Of a stretch of 64,000 nucleotides of DNA, positions 1 to 13,093 are shown piece after piece (the first letter of the stretch is position 1; each line of letters starts with the position of its first letter). The stretch covers positions 124,001 through 188,000 of the forward strand of contig JAJFGN010000028.1 of the NCBI GenBank assembly GCA_021776115.1, read 5' to 3'. Below the pieces are notes generated by a model that searched no databases, was not told where the DNA came from, and saw nothing but the letters and a program-made list of their open reading frames with translations. This DNA comes from Kiloniellaceae bacterium (GTDB lineage Bacteria; Pseudomonadota; Alphaproteobacteria; Kiloniellales; J153). Made by a program: the position numbers and the translations under genes.

Positions 1-355
1 TAAAAAACGGCTTGCAGAGGTAGTCGTAAGCACCTTCCTGGATCGCCTGAACAGCGGTGTCGACCGAAACGTAGGCAGTCATCATGATCGCGATGACCTC
101 GGGCCGATATGCGCGCAGTTCGCGGATTAGCTGCACACCGCTGCCCCGGCCGAGTCTAATGTCGATAAGCGCGATCGCCACGCTGTGCCGCTTGAGCACC
201 TTGATAGCGTCGTTTGCCGAATAGGCAGTTTCAACCGCGAAGCCTTCTAGGCGCAAAAGCTGCGCCAGGCTGTCCGCGAAGTCCCGATCATCGTCGATGA
301 CCAGTATGTCGCGTGTCGGGTCCGTATCGGCCGCCAAGTCACTTCCTTCTCTCAT
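1..355 (-). CDS. Two-component response regulator, receiver domain (partial, cut by window start)
   Basis: Reading the minus strand from the ATG at 355 gives a CheY-type receiver domain: an acidic pocket in DILVIDDDRDF, a phospho-acceptor Asp in ALIDIRL, the conserved Thr in IMMTAY and Lys in CKPF. The frame runs off the left edge, so the output domain is unseen. It begins 32 bp after the stop of the permease-kinase fusion on the same strand and is almost certainly its cognate regulator. The receiver style recalls NtrC-type regulators, but without the rest of the gene the effector class cannot be named. Confidence 0.85.
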   Translation of the reverse strand, partial: MREGSDLAADTDPTRDILVIDDDRDFADSLAQLLRLEGFAVETAYSANDAIKVLKRHSVAIALIDIRLGRGSGVQLIRELRAYRPEVIAIMMTAYVSVDTAVQAIQEGAYDYLCKPFF

Positions 356-386: not shown

Positions 387-3077
387 TCAAACCGACTCCC
401 GCAACTCCGCTGTCACCGGCGAGTCGCCTTGGTGCTCGGGCGCGAATGGCAGCATAACGGTTACCGTCGTACCCTTGCCTACTTCACTGTCGACGTCGAC
501 GCTGCCACCGTGCTGATCAGCGATGCGCTTGATCAGTGGCATGCCGAGGCCGACGCCGAACGCCTTCGTGCTGAACAGGGGCTCGAACATGTGGCGCTTG
601 ACCTCGGCGCTCATGCCGGGTCCTGTGTCGCTGATCGAGATCGCCACCATGCGTTCCAGGTTGCGCGTGCGCACGATCACTTCCTGCGGGCGGCCCGTAT
701 GCTCTTCCATGGACTGGGTCGCATGAAATGCGTTTTGCAGGATGTTAACGAAGGCCTGGCGGAGCTTCTCGCTGTCGATCAGCAATTTGGCGCCCGACTT
801 CAGGTCGAAACAAACCTTCACCCCACTTGGGTCTCGCATCTCCCTAATCTGCTGTTCGATCCAGTCATCGATCGCGACCGGTCGAAGAGTTGCCTCGCGC
901 TTGCGCGAAAATTCCAGTAAATCCTCGATGATCCGGACGCAACGCCATACGTTTCTCTGGATCCGTTGCAGCTCCTCGCGAACATGAGGCTCAGTGCCGT
1001 CGAGATACCGGGTCAGAACCGACACCGACGTCATCAGGGTGCCCAAAGGATTGCGCAGTTCGTGGCTGACCGTTGCCGTCAGTTGTCCGATCGTCGCAAG
1101 CCGCTCTGTCTGCGCTAGTTCATGCTGGGTTTCGCGCAGTTTTTCGAGCGAAGTGACGAGGTCGCGCTCCGCCAGCTCCCGGCTTTCGTGCGACAATACG
1201 ATCCACCAGGACCCGATGCAAAGTAGCGGCAGGAGCGCCAAGTAGACCCGCATGAGGAGCGTACCGCTGTCCAAGGCCGCGGCATCCACGTCGAGATCCA
1301 TCATCCGATAGACCAACAGGAAGAGACCTGCGATCACGACGGCGAGCGACAAGAGAATGCCCAGGAACTTCGCCAAGCGCTGGATCGTGTTTGGCGCCAG
1401 CTTCCGGGTGAAAGACCGGCCGACGTAGCTGGATTTCTTCTTTAGCAGGTCGGAAATCGGCTTCTTGCAGCTGTCGTGACAGTGTGCGTCGAGGCTGCAG
1501 CACAGCGAGCAGATCGGCCCATCGTAGAAGGGGCAGCCCGCCATGTCGTTCGGCTCGTAGGAATACGCGCAGATGCTGCAGCGCACGGTGCTTTGCCCCT
1601 GCGGCAGCAGGTCCGAAGCCGCCTCTGGCTCCCTTGCCAGGTAGTATTTGCCCTTGGTCAAAACGCCGAGCAGGATTGCCACCGCGAAGGCGACGGTAAA
1701 GGAGATAGGGGCCGAATAGGCTTCCGCGACGGGACCGAAAGCGCCAGCGAAGCTTGAAACCGATATGACCGATGCGACCGCCATCGCGCCGCAGCCCACG
1801 GGATTGACGTTGTAGAGATGGGCGCGCTTGAACTCGATGAAGGACGGGCTGATCCGCATCGGCTTGAGCACGACAAGATCGGCGAAAATGGCGGCGATCC
1901 AGGCAATCGCGATGTTGGAGTATACCGCCAGAACAATCTCCAGGGTCTCGAAGATGCCGAGCAGCATGAGCAGAAGTGAGATCAGGATATTGAAGACAAG
2001 CCAGACGACCCGGCCCGGATGATAGTGGGTCACCCGCGAGTAGAAGTTCGACCACGCCAGCGATCCCGCGTAGGCATTGGTCACATTGATCTTAACCTGG
2101 GAGATGAGGACGAAGACGGTCGCTGCGGCTAGCACGATGGAAGGATCGGAACTGACATATTTGTAGGCCGTTATGTACATATGAATTGGCTCTACCGCAT
2201 CGCTTTGAGCAACGCCGGCACTGACCGCGAGAACCGCGAGGAGACTGCCGGCGATAATCTTCAGGCCGCCGATCAGAATCCATCCGGGCCCGGCCGCGAC
2301 GACCGCCGCCCACCAGGAAAACCTATTGCTCTTCGTCTTATCGGGCAGGAATCGCAGATAGTCGACCTGCTCGCCAATCTGCACGACGAGGGAAAAGACC
2401 ACCCCAGTCGCGGCACCGAACGCCAGATAGTTAAAGTCGCTCGACCCGTCGGCGGCTTTCGAGAAAGCAAGCCAGTCACGGAGCACCTGCGGTTCCTCGA
2501 TGAAAATGAAGACGAAAGGCGTCACCAGCATAAGCGCCCAAAGCGGCTGCGTGAGGATCTGAAGCCGACTGATCATGGTAATGCCCATGAAGGCGATCGG
2601 GATGATCACGAGCGAGGACACGATATAGCCGATCACCAGCGGGATATCGGCGTATATTCTGAGCGCCTGCGCCATGATCGCCGCCTCGAGGGCGAAGAAG
2701 ATGAAGGTGAAGGACGCGTAGATGAGCGACGTCACCGTCGACCCGATATAGCCGAACCCGGCCCCGCGGGTCAGAAGGTCCATGTCGATATTGTACTTGC
2801 TGGAATAGTACGCGATCGGAAAACTGGTCACGAATATGCAAAGGCAAACGACCAGAATCGCGGCGAAAGCGTTGCTGAAGCCATAGCTCAGGGTAATCGC
2901 GCCGCCGATCGCCTCCAAGGCGAGGAAGGAAATTCCGCCCAAAGCCGTGTTAGAGATCGTAAAGGGCGACCAGCGCCTGAAGGACTTGGCAGCGTAACGG
3001 AGCGAATAATCCTCAAGCGTCTCATTCGCGATCCACGATTGATAAGAGCGCTTGGCTGGAACCGTCGCCGAAGTCAT
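387..3077 (-). CDS. NCS1-family permease fused to a sensor histidine kinase
   Basis: About 896 aa. Residues ~1-475 resemble the nucleobase:cation symporter-1 family (purine/cytosine/allantoin permeases) with about 12 hydrophobic segments. Residues ~499-545 form a cysteine-rich block (CSIC, then CPF, CSLCC, HCHDSC) that could bind metal. Two more hydrophobic segments follow, then a HisKA domain (phospho-His in TVSHELRNPLG, near residue 669) and an HATPase domain with N box (NILQNAFHA), G1 (DTGPGM) and G2 (GVGLG). The ATG at 3077 is preferred over an in-frame TTG 48 codons upstream because NCS1 homology begins just after it. Fusion of a transporter to a kinase parallels CbrA (an SSS symporter-kinase). 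The likely role is to sense an N-containing solute, and the amide cluster nearby makes a nitrogen compound plausible; both points are inference. Confidence 0.85.
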   Translation of the reverse strand: MTSATVPAKRSYQSWIANETLEDYSLRYAAKSFRRWSPFTISNTALGGISFLALEAIGGAITLSYGFSNAFAAILVVCLCIFVTSFPIAYYSSKYNIDMDLLTRGAGFGYIGSTVTSLIYASFTFIFFALEAAIMAQALRIYADIPLVIGYIVSSLVIIPIAFMGITMISRLQILTQPLWALMLVTPFVFIFIEEPQVLRDWLAFSKAADGSSDFNYLAFGAATGVVFSLVVQIGEQVDYLRFLPDKTKSNRFSWWAAVVAAGPGWILIGGLKIIAGSLLAVLAVSAGVAQSDAVEPIHMYITAYKYVSSDPSIVLAAATVFVLISQVKINVTNAYAGSLAWSNFYSRVTHYHPGRVVWLVFNILISLLLMLLGIFETLEIVLAVYSNIAIAWIAAIFADLVVLKPMRISPSFIEFKRAHLYNVNPVGCGAMAVASVISVSSFAGAFGPVAEAYSAPISFTVAFAVAILLGVLTKGKYYLAREPEAASDLLPQGQSTVRCSICAYSYEPNDMAGCPFYDGPICSLCCSLDAHCHDSCKKPISDLLKKKSSYVGRSFTRKLAPNTIQRLAKFLGILLSLAVVIAGLFLLVYRMMDLDVDAAALDSGTLLMRVYLALLPLLCIGSWWIVLSHESRELAERDLVTSLEKLRETQHELAQTERLATIGQLTATVSHELRNPLGTLMTSVSVLTRYLDGTEPHVREELQRIQRNVWRCVRIIEDLLEFSRKREATLRPVAIDDWIEQQIREMRDPSGVKVCFDLKSGAKLLIDSEKLRQAFVNILQNAFHATQSMEEHTGRPQEVIVRTRNLERMVAISISDTGPGMSAEVKRHMFEPLFSTKAFGVGLGMPLIKRIADQHGGSVDVDSEVGKGTTVTVMLPFAPEHQGDSPVTAELRESV

Positions 3078-3268: not shown

Positions 3269-3982
3269 TTACACGCAGCAGGCCGCAAGCTGACGCCACT
3301 CGGCCAAGGCGTCGGAGCGATTTTTCTTGAAAATGTCGCGGCGGTTGAGGTGACGGTCCTGACTAAAATGGCTGCGGATTGACGAGTGGATCGAAACGAA
3401 TTTCTGTAGCGCTTTCGCGCTCCTGCATTTCGCCATCGCCCGCTCCCGTCGCCGGAAAGGCTGGTGTGAGATTTCGGCTCTGTTGTTGAGCCAGCGGCCC
3501 GCCTCCTGACGTTCGGCATTTCCGATGGCCTTCATCGCCGCACGATAGAACCGGCGCCGGCCCATCACGATCGCTACTGGATGGCCGTATCGTTTTATCG
3601 CTTTACGCAAAAACCTCAGTGCAGCCATGCGATCCCGCTGATTCGTAACGTAGCCTCCAGAATCTCGCTCTCGTGGTCAACCGTGCGCCAGAGATAGTAG
3701 GTTTCGCCATTTATACGACGAAAGCCTCTTCCAGATGCCAGCCCCATTGCATCCTGGCCAGTATTTGTGCGGAACGCTTCTTCCTGATCTCGGCTGCGAA
3801 CATCGGTCCGAACCGATCTCACCAAGCTCTGACGTTTCATGGCTGATGTCGGTCCCGCGTTCGTGGAGGAGGTCCTCCACCTGTCGTAGCGACAGCGGGA
3901 AGCGGACATACATCATCACCGCCAAGCGGATAGTCTCGAGCGACGTCTTAAAATAACAGAACGGAATGGATTTCTCATCCAC
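3269..3982 (-). pseudogene. IS6-family transposase pseudogene (multiple frameshifts)
   Basis: Pieces of an IS6-like DDE transposase lie in two minus-strand frames. The N-terminus (frame from a GTG at 3982) carries RLAVMMYVRFPLSLRQVEDL. A middle part carrying RINGETYYLWRTVDHESE is in another frame around 3650-3760. The C-terminus (3269-3628) carries RWLNNRAEISHQPFRRRER. At least two frameshifts separate them. The second catalytic Asp, expected in an IVTD-like context, is replaced (IVMGRRR), so even a repaired protein would be inactive. I could not recognise terminal inverted repeats. Compare the copy at 20557-21252. Confidence 0.85.
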
Positions 3983-4049: not shown

Positions 4050-4934
4050 TCAATACCAGCCGCGCTTGATGTCCGCGCCCAGGTTCTCGGCGTAGAGATC
4101 AATGCGCCTGTCGCGTAACACCTGGTTGAAGTCGTTCCAGCTACGCCTACGCCGCGCGTCCGAAAGGTTAGCGTCGGCGATCACCATTTCCTCGCGGTCC
4201 TCGCTGGCCGGTCCGGCAATCGGCCATCCAGTGTAGCTAACCACCAGGCTGTTGCCGATAAAAGGCTGGCCGCGTTCGGTGCCTATCCGGTCGGCAGCGG
4301 CCACGAACATAGAATTGGAATGGGCCCCGCCCATGGCCAGGATAGTGGACATCTTCGGCTGGTTGGCGGGCTGCGACTGCATGGGGACCCAGTTGGTCGG
4401 CACGCAGAGGATATCGGCACCCTGCAGCGCCGCAAGCCGGAACACTTCGGGGAACCAGATGTCATAACAGACCGCCATCGCGATGCGGCCAATGTCGGTG
4501 TGGAACACCGGTACCCCCAGATTGCCCGGCTCGAAGAACAGATTTTCGGCCGCCCAGAGGTGGTTCTTGCGGTAGGTGCCGATCACGCCTTGTGCATCGA
4601 TTAGCACGGCGGAATTATAGAGCGCACGCCCCTCGCGCTCCGCGATGCCGGCAACGATATGTATCTTGTGGCGCGCCGCGGCATCCGCCCAGGCCCGGCA
4701 GGTCGGTCCGCCGGGGATCTCCTCGGCCATGGCTAAGGCTTCTTCGCGGGTGTTGAAAACGTAACCGCTGTTACACAGCTCGGGCATCACCACCAGGTTG
4801 GCGCCAGCTTCCGCGGCCTGGTCGATCATCTCCAGACTGTGGGCTAGATTCCGATCTTTCTCACCAACATTGGGCTCCATTTGAAGGCAGGCAATTCGGA
4901 CTTTGCTTTCGGGTTCGGATTCGCTCGTCGTCAT
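4050..4934 (-). CDS. Nitrilase-superfamily amidohydrolase
   Basis: 294 aa carbon-nitrogen hydrolase. The Glu-Lys-Cys triad is visible: E52 in MPELCNSGY, K123 in YRKNHLW and C156 in VCYDIWFPE. Members hydrolyse amides, N-carbamoyl compounds or nitriles in the cytoplasm; the exact substrate cannot be read from sequence. The ATG at 4934 is chosen because homology starts at VRIACLQME just after it; a longer in-frame extension upstream overlaps the amidase gene. It is the last gene of a minus-strand operon, 25 bp behind the amidase, which supports a role in stepwise release of ammonia from imported amides. Confidence 0.88.
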   Translation of the reverse strand: MTTSESEPESKVRIACLQMEPNVGEKDRNLAHSLEMIDQAAEAGANLVVMPELCNSGYVFNTREEALAMAEEIPGGPTCRAWADAAARHKIHIVAGIAEREGRALYNSAVLIDAQGVIGTYRKNHLWAAENLFFEPGNLGVPVFHTDIGRIAMAVCYDIWFPEVFRLAALQGADILCVPTNWVPMQSQPANQPKMSTILAMGGAHSNSMFVAAADRIGTERGQPFIGNSLVVSYTGWPIAGPASEDREEMVIADANLSDARRRRSWNDFNQVLRDRRIDLYAENLGADIKRGWY

Positions 4935-4959
4935 GGCGGGGCCTCGATCAGGTTTCGGT

Positions 4960-6354
4960 TCAAAGTTGCGGTCGTCGCGTCCACCAGTCGTGGCTTTGCT
5001 CGTAGGCGTGGGCGACGCGCAGCGCCATCGCCTCGTCAAAGGGTTTCGCGGTAATCTGCATGCCGATCGGCAAGCCATCGCGATCAAAGCCGCAGGGGAT
5101 CGAGATCGCTGGCAGGCCGGTCAGGTTGAAGGGATAGGTCAGGCGCCAGGATGCGGCCAGGACGCTTTCCGGTCCACCGGCGATCTCAACCGTCGTGGCG
5201 TCGTGGGCCCAGGCGGTCAATGGGGTGGTCGGCGTGACGATTGCATCCAGGTCCTCAAATGCCTCGTGGAAGTCCTGGATCAGCACCCGGCGGAACTGCT
5301 CCGCCTTCAGGTAGTCCGGCCCGGTCACCAGGCGGCCCATCTCGACCAAGGTGCGAACGTCCGGCTCAAACTGCGCTGTCAAGCCGGCGCGCAGCGAGGC
5401 GTCGTGATAGGCAGTTGAGGACGACAGCTCGATCGCAAAGATCGCGCCCAGGCCGTATTCCAGGTTCGGGACCTCGAAGTCGCGGATCGTGGCGCCGATT
5501 GAGGCGAGATCGCCGATCGCCGTTTCGATTGCCTCCGCCACCACCACCTGGTTACGCCCGAAAAAATGATTCCGGCACACCCCGATGCGCAAACCCTGCA
5601 GGGATTGGCCCAAGGCCGCCGTGTAGTCGGGGACCAGGCGGTCCTGACAGGAGGGGTCGCCTGGATCGGGGCCGGAAAGCGCGCGGAGCAGGAGCGCGGC
5701 GTCGCCGACCGTGCGGGTCAAGGGGCCGGCATGATCGAGCGACCAGCTATGAGGCACGATACCGCTGCGCCCAATGCGGCCGAAGGTCGGCTTGAGTCCA
5801 ACCGTACCGCAGAGGCTGGCGGGGATGCGGATCGAGCCGCCGGTATCTGAGCCCAAGGCCGCCGAGGCAAGCCCAGCCATTACCGCCGCGGCCGAGCCAC
5901 CGCTCGAACCACCGGGCACGCGCTCTAGATCCCAAGGGTTACGGGTCGGCGGCGTCACCGTGCCCCAGGCAAACTCGTGCAGCCGGGTCTTGCCGATCAC
6001 TATCGCCCCGGCCGCGCGCAGTTGCGCGACCGCATGGGAATCTTTCATGGGAAAGGTGATGTCCGGCACCGCCGTGCCCGCCTTGGTAGGCATGTCGCGG
6101 GTCAGATAGTTGTCTTTGATCGCGATTGGGACACCGTGCAACGGTCCTTTCCAGCGGCCCTGGCGAATTTCCCGCGCCGCCTCCCGGGCATCGTCGAGCG
6201 CGCTTTGCGAGACTTGGACAAAGCTTTTCAGCATCTCATCGTGCCGCCGAATTCGGTCGAGCGCGGCTTCGACCAGCGCGACCGGCGACAGCCGCCCGGC
6301 GTGAAGTTCCGGGGCCAGCGCTTCGATGGGCCGGTCCAGGGGCTCGGCGCTCAC
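4960..6354 (-). CDS. Amidase-signature family amidase (AtzE/GatA-like)
   Basis: 464 aa. The Ser-cisSer-Lys machinery is visible: K80 (IAIKDNY), the GGSSGG loop around residues 148-153, and nucleophile S174 in DTGGSIRIP. The GTG at 6354 is preferred: GAGGAGA lies about 7-10 nt upstream and the GTG overlaps the previous stop as GTGA. An ATG 21 nt further upstream has no visible ribosome site. Its partner just upstream is a 70-aa AtzG/GatC-like protein, so the enzyme may act as a heteromeric amidase like AtzE-AtzG. Plausible substrates are small amides or carbamoyl compounds taken up by the linked ABC system; this is inference. Confidence 0.88.
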   Translation of the reverse strand: MSAEPLDRPIEALAPELHAGRLSPVALVEAALDRIRRHDEMLKSFVQVSQSALDDAREAAREIRQGRWKGPLHGVPIAIKDNYLTRDMPTKAGTAVPDITFPMKDSHAVAQLRAAGAIVIGKTRLHEFAWGTVTPPTRNPWDLERVPGGSSGGSAAAVMAGLASAALGSDTGGSIRIPASLCGTVGLKPTFGRIGRSGIVPHSWSLDHAGPLTRTVGDAALLLRALSGPDPGDPSCQDRLVPDYTAALGQSLQGLRIGVCRNHFFGRNQVVVAEAIETAIGDLASIGATIRDFEVPNLEYGLGAIFAIELSSSTAYHDASLRAGLTAQFEPDVRTLVEMGRLVTGPDYLKAEQFRRVLIQDFHEAFEDLDAIVTPTTPLTAWAHDATTVEIAGGPESVLAASWRLTYPFNLTGLPAISIPCGFDRDGLPIGMQITAKPFDEAMALRVAHAYEQSHDWWTRRPQL

Positions 6355-6563
6355 CGCTCTGTCTCCTCGTCGCATGTGCCGCCGGTCGGATCGAAGACCA
6401 CCGCCGGATGTACGTCGGTGAGGTTGAGGTTGCGTAGCTTGCGTAACTCCACAAGAATATCGGAGAAGGCGGCTAGGTTTTCCTCAAGACGCTCCGGCGT
6501 GACCTCCAACCCCAGGACGTCCCGATAAGGATTCAAGGACGCGCCCGCCTTGGGCGCGGTCAT
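6351..6563 (-). CDS. Small AtzG/GatC-like amidase partner protein
   Basis: 70 aa, no membrane segment. The C-terminal part (KLRNLNLTDVHPAVVFDP) resembles the closing segment of AtzG/DUF4089 and GatC-type small subunits, which stabilise an amidase by wrapping around it. The helix-like N-terminal half (TPERLEENLAAFSDILVEL) fits the same fold. The assignment rests on size, motif and context: it sits directly between DUF1028 and amidase genes, coupled to both by ATGA and GTGA overlaps. It would be easily missed because of its length. Confidence 0.6.
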   Translation of the reverse strand: MTAPKAGASLNPYRDVLGLEVTPERLEENLAAFSDILVELRKLRNLNLTDVHPAVVFDPTGGTCDEETER

Positions 6564-7303
6564 GGCGCGCTGCCCCCGCCGCCGGGCCGCTCGGGCGGTG
6601 GGTTCAGCAGCATCTCGCTGACCGAATCCAGCAAGCCGCCCGCCGGCTTGCCGCGTTTAGGCATGCCCTCGACGAACGGCAGCAGTTGCAATCTGGCGAT
6701 GGTCGCGATGCGGCGCAGCTCGATGACCGGTTGCGGGTGCTCGTCGACGCGCAGATCGAGCCAGGGATAGTCCTCGGTGTAATGAACCCGAAGTGCCGCC
6801 GACTGCTTGCCGCGCTTGTCGCCGCCAGCGGTATTGCCGGCCTCGAGCGCCAGCAGCAAGCGTTCGGCCAGGTCCTCCGCCGCGTTGCCCTGGAACGCCT
6901 TGGCCATGGCGGTCAGGGTCGCCTCGCCGACCAACATGTTACCTTGAATCGCGAAGTCCGCCTCGGTGATGTGGCCGTACCACGGCGTGCAGCTCTCGCC
7001 CGACCAGGAAGCGCTGCGGCCCTGGGCGTCAACCACGCCGGCCTGGCGCAAGGCGGCGCCGTCGTCGTCGGCCATGACCCGATTAAGCGCTTCGGGCCCC
7101 GGTGTACCCTGCTCCATCAGGTGCAGCGCCTCGATGGCCAGGTAGGGATTGACCCAGGACTGCGTCGAAACCGCACCGACGCCGGCCTTCACATAAGGGC
7201 AGATCGCGCCCACCGCGGGTAACGCGGTACTGACTGCGACCCCCAGCATGCCGCTGCGTGGGCATCGGCCGACGATCGAGAAGGTTGTTAGATGTAAGCT
7301 CAT
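6560..7303 (-). CDS. DUF1028 family protein (Ntn-hydrolase-like fold)
   Basis: 247 aa. It starts with the typical TTFSIVGRCPRSGMLGVAVST, followed by a Gly/Ala-rich core (GAVSTQSWVNPYL) and the IQGNMLVG motif found across DUF1028. The family is predicted to have an Ntn-hydrolase-like fold and is often found with amidases and peptide or amide ABC transporters; the reaction is not established. It starts 16 bp after the LivF stop and is coupled by ATGA to the AtzG-like gene, so it belongs to the amide operon. Confidence 0.85.
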   Translation of the reverse strand: MSLHLTTFSIVGRCPRSGMLGVAVSTALPAVGAICPYVKAGVGAVSTQSWVNPYLAIEALHLMEQGTPGPEALNRVMADDDGAALRQAGVVDAQGRSASWSGESCTPWYGHITEADFAIQGNMLVGEATLTAMAKAFQGNAAEDLAERLLLALEAGNTAGGDKRGKQSAALRVHYTEDYPWLDLRVDEHPQPVIELRRIATIARLQLLPFVEGMPKRGKPAGGLLDSVSEMLLNPPPERPGGGGSAP

Positions 7304-7319: not shown

Positions 7320-8033
7320 TCAGACCGAAAGGTGATCGGCGATGCGTGCGGCGGCGCTAGGCGCGTCGCTCTTGCCCTCGTCGTCGATCTCGCCGAGTTT
7401 CACGACCACCCAGCGATCCGCGACCTCCAACGCGAAACGGACGTTCTGTTCAACCAGCAGCATGGCCACGCCGGTCCGCGCGCGCTCCGCCAATAGCGCC
7501 TTGGCGAGCCGTTCGATGATCGAAGGCTGCAGCCCCTCGGTGATCTCGTCGACCAGCATCATCTTGGGACGGGCCATTAGGGCGCGCGCGATCAACATCA
7601 TCTTTTGCTCGCCACCGGACAGCGTTCCAGCGCGCTGGCTAAGCCGTTCTCTGAGGAAGGGAAACACCTCGCCGACCCGTTCCAGTTCCTCATCGAACCA
7701 CTTCGCTTCGGGCTGACCGAGGCGCAGGTTGTCGCCCACACTCAGGTCCTGAAAGATGGCCTGCTCCTGCGGTGTGTAGGCAATGGCCTGGCGCGCGATG
7801 CGGTACGGTGGTTCACGGGTGACATCGCGCCCGTGCAGTGTGATCTGCCCCTCGCGCGCGGGCAGGAAGCCCATCACGGTCTTAAGCAGCGTGCTCTTAC
7901 CCATGCCGTTCTTGCCAAGCAGCGCGACAATTTCGCCCGGCGCCACGGTGAAGTTGATGCCGCGCACCACGATCGCCTCGCCATAGCCGCTGGTCAACCC
8001 GCTGACCGCCAGTGTAGCTGCTGCGCCGCTCAT
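7320..8033 (-). CDS. LivF/UrtE-type ABC transporter ATP-binding protein
   Basis: 237 aa ATPase of the branched-chain amino acid/urea/amide class. It has Walker A GKNGMGKST, signature LSGGEQKMM and Walker B MMLVDEITEGL with ITEGLQPSIIERL, which is UrtE/LivF-like. It overlaps the upstream permease-ATPase fusion by ATGA. With that fusion, LivH and the periplasmic binding protein it forms a complete importer (LivF, LivG domain, LivM domain, LivH). Confidence 0.9.
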   Translation of the reverse strand: MSGAAATLAVSGLTSGYGEAIVVRGINFTVAPGEIVALLGKNGMGKSTLLKTVMGFLPAREGQITLHGRDVTREPPYRIARQAIAYTPQEQAIFQDLSVGDNLRLGQPEAKWFDEELERVGEVFPFLRERLSQRAGTLSGGEQKMMLIARALMARPKMMLVDEITEGLQPSIIERLAKALLAERARTGVAMLLVEQNVRFALEVADRWVVVKLGEIDDEGKSDAPSAAARIADHLSV

Positions 8034-9856
8034 GGTTCGTTGCCTTTGCCGTCCATCGCCGTGCCGGCATAGATTTCGCGTACCAGCGCGGAGCCGACGA
8101 CCTCTTCCACGGAGCCGTCGAGCACGATCTGCCCCTGGTGCAGGACGATCACCCGCGAGCTGATCTCACGGACGAAGTCGAGGTCGTGCTCGACCAACAA
8201 AATGCTCAGGCGCTCACGCTCGGTCAGCGAGGTCAAGATCGCGCCAATCCGCTCGCGCTCGATCCGAGTCAGACCCGCGGTCGGCTCGTCGAGAAGCACG
8301 ATACGCGGCTCCAACGCCAACACCATGGCAAGTTCCAGGGCCTGTTTCTGGCCGTGAGCCAGATGACGCGCCTCAGTGTCGAGGCTCTGTGCCAGACCGG
8401 TCTCCTCGACGATGCGCAGCGCCGCCTCCGGCAGCTCGAGGGCGGTATCGCTGGTCCAGAGTGAAGGCGGTTCCAGGCGGTAGCGAGAGACCCGCAGGCA
8501 CTCGGCGACGGTCAGCGTGGCGAAAACATTGGCGGTCTGGAACTTGCGTCCGATGCCAAGCGCCACGCAGCGGTCCGGCGGCCAGCGGCCCAGCTCCCTG
8601 CCGAACACCGTAATGTCGCCGCCGGAGCGTTCGTAGCCATCGGCGAGGCAACGGATCAGCGTCGTCTTGCCGGCGCCGTTGGGTCCGACCAGACTCAAGA
8701 GCTCGCCTTCGTTGGCGACGAAGTCGATACCCTGGAGGACCTGAAGGCTACCGAAATGCCGATGCACACCGCTAACCGCGAGAGGCTTTTCCACGCCGCG
8801 CCTGACCTCGCGGACCGGGGCCCGCTCAAGCGCCGGCGTCTCGGCCGCGCGCTTCGCGCCCGGAACCAGCCGGCGCCAAAGTTTGGTCACCTCCGGCATC
8901 AGGCCCTGGGGCAGCGCCACGATGACCACGACGAAGAGGATGCCGACCAGAAGCTTCCAATAGAACGGCAGGCTGCCAGAGAGGTAGGAACTGGTCACAT
9001 CTATGAAGATCGCGCCGATCACAGGACCGATCAGCGTACCGCGGCCACCGAGCGCCACCCAGATCAACAATTCGGTGCCGAGCAGGAAGCCGGTCAACTC
9101 GGGCGCGACCACGTTGGTGAAGGCGGCGTAACCAAAGCCCGCGACCGCACCGATCGCGCCGGCGGCGACAAAAAGCAGTATCTTAATGCGCGATACCGGA
9201 ATGCCTAGGTAGGCGCAGCGAGTTTCGTTCTCCCGGATGGCGACCAGGACCCGTCCCATGTCGCTGCGCACGAAGAGCCAGGCGAGGGCCGTGACCACCA
9301 CCAGGAAGGCGCCGGCAATCCAAAACCAGGTCTCGATCGTCCAGTAGTAGGTGGGAAAGCCGGAGAGCCCGCTGCTGGAGCCGGTCGTGCGGCCGCCGGC
9401 GAAAACCACCTGGGTCACGACGATCGGCAGCGCCAGCGTGACGATGGAACCGTAAAGCGGCGAGGCCCCATGATAGAAGGCGAGCCAGCCGGCCAACCCG
9501 GCCACCGCCATGGCGGCCAGAACCCCGAGCGCGAGAGCAAGGATAGCCCAGCCGGCACCGAAGCCCCAATGAGTGAACACCAAGGCACAAGCATAGGCAC
9601 CAATACCGAAGAAGGCGGACTGCCCGAAGGTGAGGATACCGGTGTATCCCCACAGTAGATCGACGGTCAATGCGAGAGCGGCCAGCAGCAGCGCGCGGAT
9701 CAGGATGTTGACGGTGTAAATGTCCAAGAAGAATGGCGCCACACCGAGGACCACGAGCGCGGCCGCACTGACCTTAAGCACGGTTCCGAGGTCCGAGCGC
9801 TGCCGCGCGGCCGAGGGTTGCCCCTTGGCGGGACCGTTTTGCGCCTGCTCAACCAC
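8030..9856 (-). CDS. LivM-LivG fusion: ABC permease plus ATP-binding protein
   Basis: 608 aa. Residues ~20-330 are a LivM-type permease with about nine hydrophobic segments and the coupling region RENETRCAYLGIP. A ~30-residue basic linker leads to a LivG-type ATPase from ~residue 355 with Walker A GPNGAGKTT, a degenerate signature (LAHGQKQALE) and Walker B IVLLDEPTAGL. It overlaps LivH by 8 bp and LivF by ATGA. Such fusions fix permease:ATPase stoichiometry and recur in this class. The second amide transporter in the window (13148-16540) keeps the two as separate genes. Confidence 0.92.
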   Translation of the reverse strand: MVEQAQNGPAKGQPSAARQRSDLGTVLKVSAAALVVLGVAPFFLDIYTVNILIRALLLAALALTVDLLWGYTGILTFGQSAFFGIGAYACALVFTHWGFGAGWAILALALGVLAAMAVAGLAGWLAFYHGASPLYGSIVTLALPIVVTQVVFAGGRTTGSSSGLSGFPTYYWTIETWFWIAGAFLVVVTALAWLFVRSDMGRVLVAIRENETRCAYLGIPVSRIKILLFVAAGAIGAVAGFGYAAFTNVVAPELTGFLLGTELLIWVALGGRGTLIGPVIGAIFIDVTSSYLSGSLPFYWKLLVGILFVVVIVALPQGLMPEVTKLWRRLVPGAKRAAETPALERAPVREVRRGVEKPLAVSGVHRHFGSLQVLQGIDFVANEGELLSLVGPNGAGKTTLIRCLADGYERSGGDITVFGRELGRWPPDRCVALGIGRKFQTANVFATLTVAECLRVSRYRLEPPSLWTSDTALELPEAALRIVEETGLAQSLDTEARHLAHGQKQALELAMVLALEPRIVLLDEPTAGLTRIERERIGAILTSLTERERLSILLVEHDLDFVREISSRVIVLHQGQIVLDGSVEEVVGSALVREIYAGTAMDGKGNEP

Positions 9857-10685
9857 TGAACAGTCCCTGTGGACGGAGGCGTAGGATCACTGCGGCCAAA
9901 ACCACGATGGTCAAACCGCCGAGGATCGCGCTGACGTAGGTGCTGACCACGACCTGGGCACCGCCGAGAATCAGCGAGGCAACCATCAAGCCGGGTATGG
10001 ATATGCCTGAAACCAGAACCAGCATGAAAGAGTTGACCAACCAGGGCAGGCCAAGATTCGGGTCGACCGAAATAAGCGGCGTGACCAAAGCGCCCGCCAT
10101 GCTGGCGAGCGCCGCGCCGAGGCCGAATGTAGTTAGGCGAACCCGAGTGCTATCGATACCCAGACCGCGCGCCAGATCCTCGTTCATGATCACGGCGCGC
10201 GCGTTCAGCCCGAAACGCGTGAAGTAGAGCAGCGCCGTGAGTGCCACCGCCAAGAGAGCAGCCAGGGCGACCAGCACGAGCCGGTAGGTCGAATAGGACT
10301 GGCCGAGAAACTCGATCGCGCCCGAGATCGGGCTTTGCACGAACTGAACCTCGCGCCCGAAGACGATGGTGATGACCTGACCAATGATTATGCCCAGGCC
10401 CCAGGTCGCCAGGATTGCGTCCAGTGGCCGGGTATAGAGCGGCCGGACGATCGTGCGTTCGACAATCAGTCCCAGCACAAACCCGACCAGGGCCGCGAAA
10501 GGAACCGCCAACCAGGGATTCCAGCCCAGTTGAGTGGTGACAAAGGCGGCGTACCCGCCGATAGTAAGGAAGGCGCCATGGGCGAAGTTAATCAACTTCA
10601 TGACGCCCAGGATGATCATCAAGCCGCTTGCGACGGCGAACAGTATTGCCGCAGTTGTCAAAATATCGAGGAGCAGACCGCCCAA
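9849..10685 (-). CDS. LivH-type ABC permease
   Basis: 278 aa inner-membrane permease with about eight hydrophobic segments and the family motif MKLINFAHGAFLTIGGY near the N-terminus. The start is a TTG at 10685 with GGGAG about 10 nt upstream; a short truncation to a later start is possible. It follows the binding-protein gene after a 90-bp gap that contains a strong stem-loop. Confidence 0.88.
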   Translation of the reverse strand: MGGLLLDILTTAAILFAVASGLMIILGVMKLINFAHGAFLTIGGYAAFVTTQLGWNPWLAVPFAALVGFVLGLIVERTIVRPLYTRPLDAILATWGLGIIIGQVITIVFGREVQFVQSPISGAIEFLGQSYSTYRLVLVALAALLAVALTALLYFTRFGLNARAVIMNEDLARGLGIDSTRVRLTTFGLGAALASMAGALVTPLISVDPNLGLPWLVNSFMLVLVSGISIPGLMVASLILGGAQVVVSTYVSAILGGLTIVVLAAVILRLRPQGLFSG

Positions 10686-10719
10686 GGACCCAGATCTCCC
10701 GGCTTATTCGGCGTGAAAG

Positions 10720-10763
10720 TTCGGCCGGTCGCGCGCCCTTTTGCGACGACGAGACCGGCCGAA
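10720..10763 (-). terminator. Long stem-loop between binding protein and LivH (attenuator or mRNA-stabilising hairpin)
   Basis: Perfect 11-bp arms, TTCGGCCGGTC (10720-10730 on plus) and GACCGGCCGAA (10753-10763), with a ~22-nt loop. No clear U-run follows in the direction of transcription, so partial termination or 3'-end protection of the binding-protein message is likelier than full termination. Confidence 0.55.
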
Positions 10764-10775
10764 GACAGTTCCAGT

Positions 10776-11942
10776 TTACAGGTTAGGGCATTGCTCGCCC
10801 GGATCGACATCCTTGAAGCTGCTGATCAACCTGATGCCGCCATCCGCCTGGACTTGAGCGAGATACATGGTCAGCGGCGCGTGGCGTTGCTTGTTCATCT
10901 GGATCTTACCGCGCGGCCCCATGAAAGCGACATCGTCGAGCGCGTCGATCACCGCCTGGGAGTCAGTCGTGCCGGCCTTCTCGACCGCGAGCTTGTAGAG
11001 ATAGACGCCCTCGTACTGCGGCACCGAAAGGTCGTTCGGCGTCTTCAGATCGTCGCCGAAGTGGGCCTTCATGTTCCTCAGGAACGCCTGATTTTCCTGG
11101 CTTGGGATATCGGTGATGTAGGATGCGGAAATGTAAATGCCCGCGGCATCGGCACCCATATTCCGGGCCGTACCTTCGTCAACCGCGAGGTTTCCGTAGG
11201 GAATGTCGACACCCGCCGCGCGCAGCTGCTTGGTGAGCGTCACGTTCGGCGCGCCACCGGCGGTCGAGGTGATCAAGGCATCGGCCCCAGAAGACTTTAG
11301 CTTGCTGATAATCGCGGTCCAGTCGGTGCCGTCCATGGGCAGGTACTCATCGCCCAGAACCTTGCCGCCCTTCTGGGCGATATAGTCGGCCGTGAACTCG
11401 AGCATGCCGCGGCCAAAGGCGTAGTCACTGCCGACCAGAAAGAAGGTCTTGGCTCCCTCGGCGCTCATGAAATGGTCGACGATCGGGGCGACCTGCTGCT
11501 CCGGCACCCAAGCGTTGACGTAGAGCCAGGGGCTGCAGGAGCGGCCCTCGTAGAACGAGGTATAGATGAACGGCACACGGCCACGATTGACGATCGGTAG
11601 GCCCGCGTTGCGCGCGGCGCTGGTTTCCATCGAGATCAGCACGTCGACCTTCTTTTGGAACACCAAGGAATCGAAGGCCTTCTGCGCACCTTGGGCGCCG
11701 CTGCCGTCATCGGCGACGACCAGCTCGATCTGGCGGCCGAGTACGCCGCCGGCCTTGTTGATCTCTGCGGCCGCGAGTTCGGCGGCCTGAACCACCGAGG
11801 GTGCGACCACGCTGTTGGCGCCGCTCAAACCGACCGGAATGCCGATCTTGATGGTCTCGGCCGCCATGGCGCCGCCGCCGAGCCCGAGGACTGTTGCGAC
11901 CGCAAGTGCGCCCGCCAAGTTAGCAGTACGTGTCTTTGTCAT
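10776..11942 (-). CDS. Periplasmic amide/urea-type substrate-binding protein (Liv/Urt/AmiC fold)
   Basis: 388 aa with a Sec signal peptide (MTKTRTANLAGALAVATV..., predicted cleavage after GGGAMA-A). The mature part is a type-I periplasmic binding protein (TIKIGIPVGLSGANS... NKAGGVLGRQIELVVADD). ATG 11942 has GGGAGGGAG upstream. It is first in the operon leading to LivH, LivM-LivG, LivF, DUF1028, the small AtzG-like protein, amidase and nitrilase. The hydrolases suggest amides or carbamoyl compounds rather than amino acids as cargo. Confidence 0.88.
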   Translation of the reverse strand: MTKTRTANLAGALAVATVLGLGGGAMAAETIKIGIPVGLSGANSVVAPSVVQAAELAAAEINKAGGVLGRQIELVVADDGSGAQGAQKAFDSLVFQKKVDVLISMETSAARNAGLPIVNRGRVPFIYTSFYEGRSCSPWLYVNAWVPEQQVAPIVDHFMSAEGAKTFFLVGSDYAFGRGMLEFTADYIAQKGGKVLGDEYLPMDGTDWTAIISKLKSSGADALITSTAGGAPNVTLTKQLRAAGVDIPYGNLAVDEGTARNMGADAAGIYISASYITDIPSQENQAFLRNMKAHFGDDLKTPNDLSVPQYEGVYLYKLAVEKAGTTDSQAVIDALDDVAFMGPRGKIQMNKQRHAPLTMYLAQVQADGGIRLISSFKDVDPGEQCPNL

Positions 11943-12079: not shown

Positions 12080-13093
12080 TCAGGCGAGATACTTTTTCGA
12101 AATAGCCGCGCCTATTGTGTACTTCGGATCAACGAAGTTGCCGAGCCGGACTTTGCCGCATTGGCTTAGCATCATGTATGCATCCCACCGGTCGTATCCG
12201 AACTCCGCCTCCATCCAATAGATCAATTCGCGGTAGGCAATTCTCGTCGCATCCTCCAGAGGCCGCGAACTGCCGATCGCCATGATGAAGTCATCCGCTT
12301 CGAGGCGCGGCCACTCAATCGTCCAGCCCTTTATAAGGTCCACGGTAATGGTCGTAGTTGTCGGAAACTCCACCGCCACTCCGCAGACTTCGCCGTCACC
12401 CTGGCACGCGTGAGCGTCGCCGATGAAGATCCGGGCACCGGGCGTCCGCACTGGTAAATAGGTCACCGTGCCGGGACCCATGTCCGGCAGGTCCATGTTT
12501 CCGCCATGATTATCGGGCGTCAAGGAGTTGATTGAATCGATTTCGGGCGAGCAGCTCAAAGTGCCGATGTGCGGCCGGTAGGGCAGAGTCACCCGATCGC
12601 TCCAATAGACGTTCTCTTCATCGACGCGAATTTTGCGGACCTTTTCTGGCAGCGGCTCGTTCAGGGTCGCCGTATAATAGGTTCCGGTCAGGGCGCCGAA
12701 CTCCTTGATCATGCAGCAAGTGCCACGCGGTTGCGGGCCGCGCGGTGCCATGGATTCAATATGAATGGCAACAGTGTCACCGTGCTCCGCGCCTTCGACC
12801 ATGATCGGCCCGCATTGTGGATTGAGGAATGGCATTTTCAGCAGCTCGGAAGGCTTATCGTCCTCGGACTTGATCACGCCCTCGAAAGCGTCATGTGTCT
12901 CGACCACGACACGGTCACCGGGCTTGATATGCAGAACCGGATCCGAATAGGGACCTATGGTGTACTGAAAGGTGCCTTGATCCTCGATCGTCAGTTGATG
13001 CGTTGCGCCACCTCCACCGCCCCCGACACCGCGTTTGCACATGATTGACTCCGAAACCCAGTCGTTCGGATACTGCCGCATCACAAGTTCCAT
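12080..13093 (-). CDS. fmdA: Formamidase/acetamidase (FmdA/AmdA family)
   Basis: 337 aa. It matches the FmdA_AmdA family: HIKPGDRVVVETHDAFEG, HGDTVAIHIESM, NHGGNMDLPDMGPGT and GDAHACQGDGEVCG. The enzyme releases ammonia from formamide or acetamide. ATG 13093 is preceded by AGGAGG with ideal spacing. The N-terminus carries an odd run of six glycines (GVGGGGGGATH). It closes the operon that begins with the 512-aa binding protein, the arrangement known for fmd-type short-chain-amide systems (FmdDEF transporter). Confidence 0.88.
   Translation of the reverse strand: MELVMRQYPNDWVSESIMCKRGVGGGGGGATHQLTIEDQGTFQYTIGPYSDPVLHIKPGDRVVVETHDAFEGVIKSEDDKPSELLKMPFLNPQCGPIMVEGAEHGDTVAIHIESMAPRGPQPRGTCCMIKEFGALTGTYYTATLNEPLPEKVRKIRVDEENVYWSDRVTLPYRPHIGTLSCSPEIDSINSLTPDNHGGNMDLPDMGPGTVTYLPVRTPGARIFIGDAHACQGDGEVCGVAVEFPTTTTITVDLIKGWTIEWPRLEADDFIMAIGSSRPLEDATRIAYRELIYWMEAEFGYDRWDAYMMLSQCGKVRLGNFVDPKYTIGAAISKKYLA

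Follow-up and report, generated by a model that had tools for sequence, protein, structure and literature searches.

A gene lying at positions 387 to 3077, on the minus strand, of a 64,000-nucleotide stretch of DNA from a Kiloniellaceae bacterium (GenBank assembly GCA_021776115.1, contig JAJFGN010000028.1, positions 124,001 to 188,000; hereafter the window) encodes a permease joined to a histidine kinase through a cysteine-rich linker. This fusion is probably a transceptor whose ligands are urea or short-chain amides, such as formamide and acetamide, and which would control the use of amides and urea through its kinase. An earlier note on the same DNA had proposed a transporter-kinase fusion here, and its frame and coordinates proved correct. 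The parts of the protein, all encoded on the minus strand, are as follows, with the evidence for each in brackets.

387–3077, minus strand: whole fusion, 896 amino acids, comprising an NCS1-like permease, an eight-cysteine module, two hydrophobic segments and a histidine kinase (translation, Pfam, model and fold matches)
1632–3020, minus strand: permease domain, about residues 20–482, NCS1-type predicted fold (fold matches and hhalign, without a Pfam match)
1467–1580, minus strand: eight-cysteine module, residues 500–537, probable two-zinc module (spacing, quartet loss, module model)
1191–1367, minus strand: two hydrophobic segments, residues 571–589 and 611–629, probably a transmembrane hairpin that lies between the module and the kinase (hydropathy scan)
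897–1088, minus strand: HisKA dimerisation and phospho-acceptor domain, residues 664–727, with H672 in SHELRNP (PF00512, E 2.9e-16)
441–776, minus strand: HATPase_c catalytic domain, residues 768–879 (PF02518, E 1.1e-22)

The start of the frame, an ATG at 3077, agrees with the N-terminus of each of the two closest relatives. Pfam finds both the HisKA domain with its phospho-acceptor histidine and the HATPase_c domain, the combination by which a two-component sensor kinase is recognised, and two weaker ATPase-type matches overlap the HATPase_c region. Residues 1–600 were modelled with AlphaFold from a 27-sequence alignment (predicted local distance difference test, pLDDT, 75; predicted template modelling score, pTM, 0.77), and in this model a long helix at 565–599 spans the first hydrophobic segment. 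The closest fold to the modelled permease is CodB (Z 30.1, root-mean-square deviation, rmsd, 3.3 over 398 residues), followed by Mhp1 structures at Z 23.1–25.4, the next listed entry standing at 21.7; the SLC5 structures listed, at about Z 18–20, lie below the NCS1 structures (Z 23–30). A profile comparison with hhalign, in which the template consisted of four PF02133 sequences, gave a probability of 94.2 and E 1.1e-7 over 319 columns. Direct searches of the sequence returned less: residues 1–514 have no Pfam match even at E 10, PF02133 included; a PF02133 search of the window's own genome found nothing at E 1e-10; a profile of residues 1–600 reached no Protein Data Bank (PDB) chain at E 1; and the NCBIfam cytosine-permease model matched the window protein at E 0.064 and one kinase-less relative at E 2.9e-4, both far under its cut-off. 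The permease half is thus NCS1-like by predicted fold and lies outside the Pfam family PF02133, to which we do not assign it because there is no direct Pfam match. The earlier description, an NCS1 permease joined to a kinase, therefore stands as regards predicted fold and profile similarity, but not as regards membership of PF02133.

The linker was said to hold about ten cysteine and histidine residues, and we count eight cysteines (500, 503, 515, 523, 526, 527, 533 and 537) and two histidines (532 and 534), the cysteines being spaced C-x2-C-x11-C-x7-C-x2-C-C-x5-C-x3-C. All eight are invariant in the 27 initial sequences, the window's own counted, and their exact spacing is kept in 80 of 80 relatives from named genomes of Pseudomonadota, Cyanobacteriota, Campylobacterota and Myxococcota, these being the best 80 by similarity to a query that contains the linker. 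A second set of 146 loci was built from four genome searches; it overlaps the first and contains repeats. The motif is found in 145 of them, the exception (L037) being a 281-residue frame that stops before the linker. This set yields 135 distinct motif-bearing sequences; it includes one frame cut by a contig end upstream of any kinase (L259), the fused status of the others being judged from frame length, and omits a 50-residue fragment (G651) and two distant proteins lacking the module (G609 contig 40 and G610 contig 49). In the fused set, 136 distinct sequences were aligned; each of the eight cysteines is invariant in all of them, and the histidines are not conserved (H532 in 8, H534 in 60). 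Loss of the cysteines among orthologues, which had been named as a possible refutation, is therefore not what the relatives display. The suggestion that such a linker is unusual for fusions of this kind is not supported within the family, in which every complete fusion examined possesses the module.

Relatives without a kinase, found by Tblastn on plasmid records, suggest how the cysteines are grouped. Eleven were read: the permeases of two Acinetobacter, Klebsiella and Moraxella keep exactly C500, C503, C523 and C526; two from Streptomyces keep these four and C515; three from Arthrobacter and one from Tsukamurella keep C500 alone; and one from Methylovirgula keeps all eight. Ten of the eleven lack the quartet 515/527/533/537 or keep only its C515. 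The quartets 500/503/523/526 and 515/527/533/537 thus appear to be kept or lost nearly as units, as two metal sites would be, and on this pattern the module is likely to bind metal, the metal probably being zinc and the whole probably a two-zinc module. A model of the module alone, built from 66 sequences, has a pLDDT of 82–88 over its first half and consists of a beta-hairpin and, after it, a helix beginning beside C523, a layout like that of a treble clef. FYVE chains overlay this model at 1.8–2.0 Å over 40–41 residues with insignificant scores (Z 2.8–3.3), and the insignificant matches as a whole include many binuclear zinc fingers (FYVE, RING, PHD and ZZ). Two other identities for the linker were considered. 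A rubredoxin or iron-sulphur module was dropped, as the rubredoxin matches of phmmer reached only E 6–8, and kinship with classical zinc-finger chains, which the module profile matched at E 9e-4 to 8, was not accepted, since it rests on the generic CxxC half of about 20 columns.

The conservation of the module could also mean, along the lines of the metal or redox sensing that the earlier note thought possible, that the module itself senses zinc or another metal, the redox state or nitric oxide, and that the kinase integrates this signal with the amide supply. The eight invariant cysteines of all complete fusions examined would be in keeping with such a role, as would the loss of the second quartet in nearly all kinase-less relatives, which links it more to signalling than to transport. 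However, fixed spacing and all-or-nothing loss of a quartet suit structural metal sites equally, the nearest fold matches, insignificant as they are, include structural zinc fingers, and the leading neighbour clusters with named representatives contain no recurring metal or redox gene family. We consider sensing by the module itself quite unlikely.

Fused and kinase-less forms share 88 near-invariant columns, five of which are gap columns and 83 residue columns; the binding site has probably been retained in the sensor. The eleven kinase-less forms constitute one group on the tree, with a support of 97. Whether a kinase was gained or lost cannot be read from this tree, because the branches of its two outgroups have a length of about 10. 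The alignment shows a consistent difference between fused and kinase-less proteins at fourteen positions, among them E55, Q177, H353, W359 and C533, which are candidates for separating sensor from permease.

The nature of the ligand is suggested by gene context. The fetched flanks of the 80 relatives were searched for clusters of urea-type ABC transporter parts, FmdA, FmdB, aliphatic amidase and AmiS, and at least one such cluster is present in 59 loci, at least two in 49 and at least three in 35. The next downstream gene on the same strand belongs, in 45 of the 80, to a cluster represented by a REC-LuxR regulator. On a Burkholderia plasmid, the fusion and its LuxR regulator lie divergent to a set made up of a nitrilase-family gene, fmdB, fmdA and five ABC genes of amide type, and on a Klebsiella plasmid (L149, the one Klebsiella fusion locus opened) the formamidase gene amiF and urtEDCBA are divergent from the fusion. 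Across 385 genomes of the class, the fusion occurs in 26 (its own genome included), FmdA over its cut-off in 21, and both in 17, where about 1.4 would be expected (Fisher p 9.7e-20, uncorrected for kinship). In 12 of these 17 the two genes lie within 7 kb of each other, and in five they are on different contigs; eight further genomes of the class with only lower-scoring FmdA relatives all lack the fusion.

The kinase-less relatives point in the same direction. Eight of their records are annotated (three further ones are unannotated), and six of these have urease, formamidase or amidase genes as neighbours. In Acinetobacter ursingii the permease gene is upstream of ureEFG, a ureJ-type gene, ureD and ureABC; in Klebsiella pneumoniae (L185:6956-8563) a permease annotated as a 'cytosine permease' closes a urease gene group, and by family and position it may be a urea carrier. 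Those of Moraxella, Tsukamurella and Methylovirgula are near fmdA and FmdB-type or zinc-ribbon genes, and that of Arthrobacter U41 adjoins an aliphatic amidase and an acetate-CoA ligase. Sensor and permease are neighbours in one locus on the Methylovirgula plasmid (L184:5320-15391), where fmdB, fmdA, the fusion kinase, its regulator, the eight-cysteine kinase-less permease and an aliphatic amidase are found within 10 kb.

Gene context therefore points to urea or short-chain amides, and not nucleobases, as the likely ligand. The earlier note had called the permease nucleobase- or allantoin-type, and a nucleobase, hydantoin or allantoin as ligand might be favoured by the fact that CodB, the closest fold, transports cytosine and that some relatives are annotated as 'cytosine permease' or 'allantoin permease'. 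Such annotations are, however, similarity-based, and the genes that bear them sit in urease or formamidase loci; in addition, no nucleobase gene family appears among the neighbour clusters to which names were given, namely the leading ones. This substrate class is highly improbable in our estimation.

Several observations weigh against a urea or amide transceptor with a zinc-bound coupling module. In the fetched flanks, several of them short, 21 of the 80 loci have no amide or urea cluster; these include all five Sulfurimonas loci, four of five cyanobacterial loci, Polyangium, and L040, L041 and L043, which are three of the eight relatives grouped with the window protein; FmdA is present in the remaining five. 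The names of the neighbour clusters derive from one representative each. FmdA over its cut-off is absent from nine of the 26 fusion-bearing genomes of the class, and amide or urea neighbours were not seen for two of the eight annotated kinase-less relatives, those of Streptomyces angustmyceticus and Arthrobacter NicSoilB11. The complete module of the kinase-less Methylovirgula permease signifies that eight cysteines are not strictly tied to a kinase. The structure prediction proposed for the linker did yield the hairpin-then-helix model, but no significant fold match: Foldseek returned nothing at E 0.001 or better, and the best score of VIA was Z 3.6, in a row with an rmsd of 11.5. This absence of matches is not counted as a sign of a new fold. 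Pfam likewise has no match over residues 500–600 at E 10. In a Tistrella locus, a response regulator is present and no amide gene occurs within 12 kb.

What follows the module in the chain varies across the family. An H-box is recognised by pattern in 72 of the 80 relatives, in 51 of them within long frames of more than 1,060 residues, and Pfam confirmed a receiver at the C-terminus of the Klebsiella fusion L149. The window's group has nine members with frames of about 880–915 residues, one of which (L044) stops early, at 629; another frame in the family (L094) likewise stops shortly past the module. Two Sulfurimonas proteins have the permease and eight-cysteine front end and no kinase, one carrying PAS-GGDEF (L074:9977-12814) and the other PAS-GGDEF-EAL (L085:9977-13960). 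That the protein is mainly a permease, with a kinase that tunes transport or acts as a minor regulator, is the least probable of the readings considered: the shared near-invariant columns would allow transport to be intact, and the transporter domain of CbrA, in the accessible text of one report, carries histidine without the kinase (PMC7918813), but the widespread H-box, the REC-LuxR gene so often directly downstream and the cyclic-di-GMP-type output domains on the same Sulfurimonas front end argue for a signalling module. In a sample of 398 genomes of the phylum, the family profile matches 54, a few of them through fragments or kinase-less proteins; within the order the fusion occurs in only 3 of 61 genomes, and its distribution there is scattered. 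Matches were also found in 524 plasmid records, 342 of them from Klebsiella, and at least two of those Klebsiella records hold a kinase-less relative.

The locus of the window itself is rich in amide-related genes, which are listed here with the other neighbours of the fusion.

2–355, minus strand: first part of the neighbouring hybrid kinase, truncated at the edge of the window and 804 residues long in the genome (Pfam, genome reading)
3269–3628, minus strand: transposase remnant (DDE_Tnp_IS240, PF13610, E 2.2e-15)
3677–3982, minus strand: likely N-terminal part of the transposase remnant (no Pfam match at 1e-4)
4050–5087, minus strand: carbon-nitrogen hydrolase gene, amide-related (PF00795, E 4.6e-56)
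4960–6375, minus strand: amidase gene, amide-related (PF01425, E 4.3e-118)
6560–7303, minus strand: DUF1028 gene, between amidase and ABC genes (E 3.3e-74)
7320–11942, minus strand: ABC transporter genes of Liv/urea type (Pfam and NCBIfam matches)
12080–13093, minus strand: acetamidase/formamidase-family gene (PF03069, E 4.4e-34)

The transposase remains separate the fusion gene from the amidase genes. The best matches of the ABC genes are often Urt proteins, beneath the curated cut-offs, and for the substrate-binding protein at 10776–11942 the best match is UrtA, under its cut-off. The gene at 12080–13093, which has no NCBIfam match at 1e-20, is the second acetamidase/formamidase-family gene of the locus and lies between two Liv/urea-type ABC gene sets; together with the amidase and the carbon-nitrogen hydrolase it forms an amide-rich island. 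On the other side, 31 bases downstream of the fusion gene, is the hybrid kinase (REC-PAS-HisKA-HATPase-REC), and past it an OmpR-type regulator on the opposite strand, from which fmdA and AmiS/UreI are divergent. This fmdA scores 724 bits against NCBIfam FmdA, and both genes are within about 5 kb of the fusion. The claim of an adjacent cognate regulator is not supported: the neighbour opens with a receiver domain, but the full protein is a hybrid kinase in which Pfam detects no DNA-binding domain. A riboswitch check of the window and of three relatives' loci (L012, L148 and L149) found tRNA alone.

We propose the following mechanism for the transceptor. A substrate, presumably urea or a short-chain amide, would occupy the permease site and shift the permease between conformations. 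The cysteine module, at the C-terminus of the permease and on its cytoplasmic side, would fold around a pair of Zn(II) ions, bound by C500/C503/C523/C526 and by C515/C527/C533/C537 respectively. By way of the two-helix hairpin it would relay the change to the dimer of the kinase, occupying the position that STAC has in CbrA. The kinase would then switch on genes for uptake and hydrolysis. In many relatives a REC-LuxR regulator would act on divergent urtABCDE-fmdA/B or amidase operons, and in the window's organism a phosphorelay is more likely, from the fusion to the hybrid kinase and perhaps on to the OmpR-type regulator divergent from fmdA-amiS; such a route, with fmdA-amiS as its target, is plausible. 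A bolder extension, which we hold to be rather doubtful if conceivable, is that a tail metal site of urea and amide permeases was extended by a second four-cysteine site into an obligatory coupling module, which may be a metal- or redox-gated switch, and that this one front end serves outputs as different as simple kinases, hybrid kinases and the cyclic-di-GMP enzymes of Sulfurimonas.

The suggested analogy with CbrA is supported. The SLC5-STAC kinases CbrA, CrbS (MxtR) and RpuS share with the fusion an N-terminal transporter, a small cytoplasmic coupling domain and a histidine kinase, in some cases with a receiver, as well as a role in nutrient sensing. We do not place the fusion among them because its transporter domain is closest to NCS1 and not SLC5; it appears to have the eight-cysteine module where they have STAC, and its context is amide and urea, whereas theirs is histidine, acetate or pyruvate. 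In CbrA, according to the part of the report available, STAC docks beneath the transporter and is bound by CbrX, a peptide of two helices that is separate from the chain (PMC13022988), whereas the two-helix hairpin of the fusion belongs to the same chain. Ks-Amt5 is likewise a kinase-fused transport protein that has become a sensor of a nitrogen source; the accessible text describes a trimer of Amt fold, without a PAS, HAMP or STAC linker domain and without transport (PMC5764959), in contrast to the NCS1-like fold and cysteine module found here. With CodB and Mhp1 the fusion shares predicted fold and weak profile similarity, but it differs from them in lacking a PF02133 match, in its cysteine tail and kinase, and in its amide and urea context. 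Binuclear zinc fingers (FYVE, RING, ZZ and PHD) share with the module model a hairpin followed by a helix, with cysteine pairs at the expected places, whereas the adjacent C526 and C527, the other spacing, scores of just Z 2.8–3.3 and the absence of a Pfam match set the module apart.

The Methylophilus-type Fmd amide system and the Pseudomonas AmiC/AmiR system employ the same enzymes and ABC transporter as are found around the fusion. Regulation by AmiC/AmiR is by antitermination, whereas we propose a membrane kinase as the sensor. In Pseudomonas veronii, the accessible text describes amiECR and, in addition, an fmdAB-urtABCDE-amiE locus without amiC or amiR (PMC13209695). The available parts of two reports on Klebsiella describe UrtABC and AmiF as transporters and enzymes (PMC5506382, PMC13060141), one of them suggesting a role in urinary-tract colonisation for the urea transport system of pKPN-307, which comprises UrtA, UrtB, UrtC and AmiF (PMC5506382). 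A urtABCDE operon with LuxR-type two-component genes is likewise reported in accessible text, with a histidine kinase (HK) in the figure legend (PMC13296017). An NCS1-kinase fusion with a cysteine module was not found in the literature searched, where most subscription journals fell outside coverage, and neither fusion nor module is described in the accessible portions of PMC13209695, PMC13060141, PMC5506382, PMC7918813, PMC13022988, PMC10102598, PMC13296017 and PMC5764959.

An NCS1-like fusion thus joins the SLC5 and Amt fusions. The natural series of tails with eight, five, four and one cysteine offers a means to study how the motion of a transporter reaches a kinase. Among the 'cytosine' and 'allantoin' permeases encoded in urease loci, some are suggested to be urea or amide carriers. 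The genes amiF-urtEDCBA, from which the Klebsiella fusion L149 is divergent, match the urea transport system of pKPN-307 in gene content. If the fusion is the transceptor proposed here, a widespread sensor family would gain a testable ligand class and target genes.

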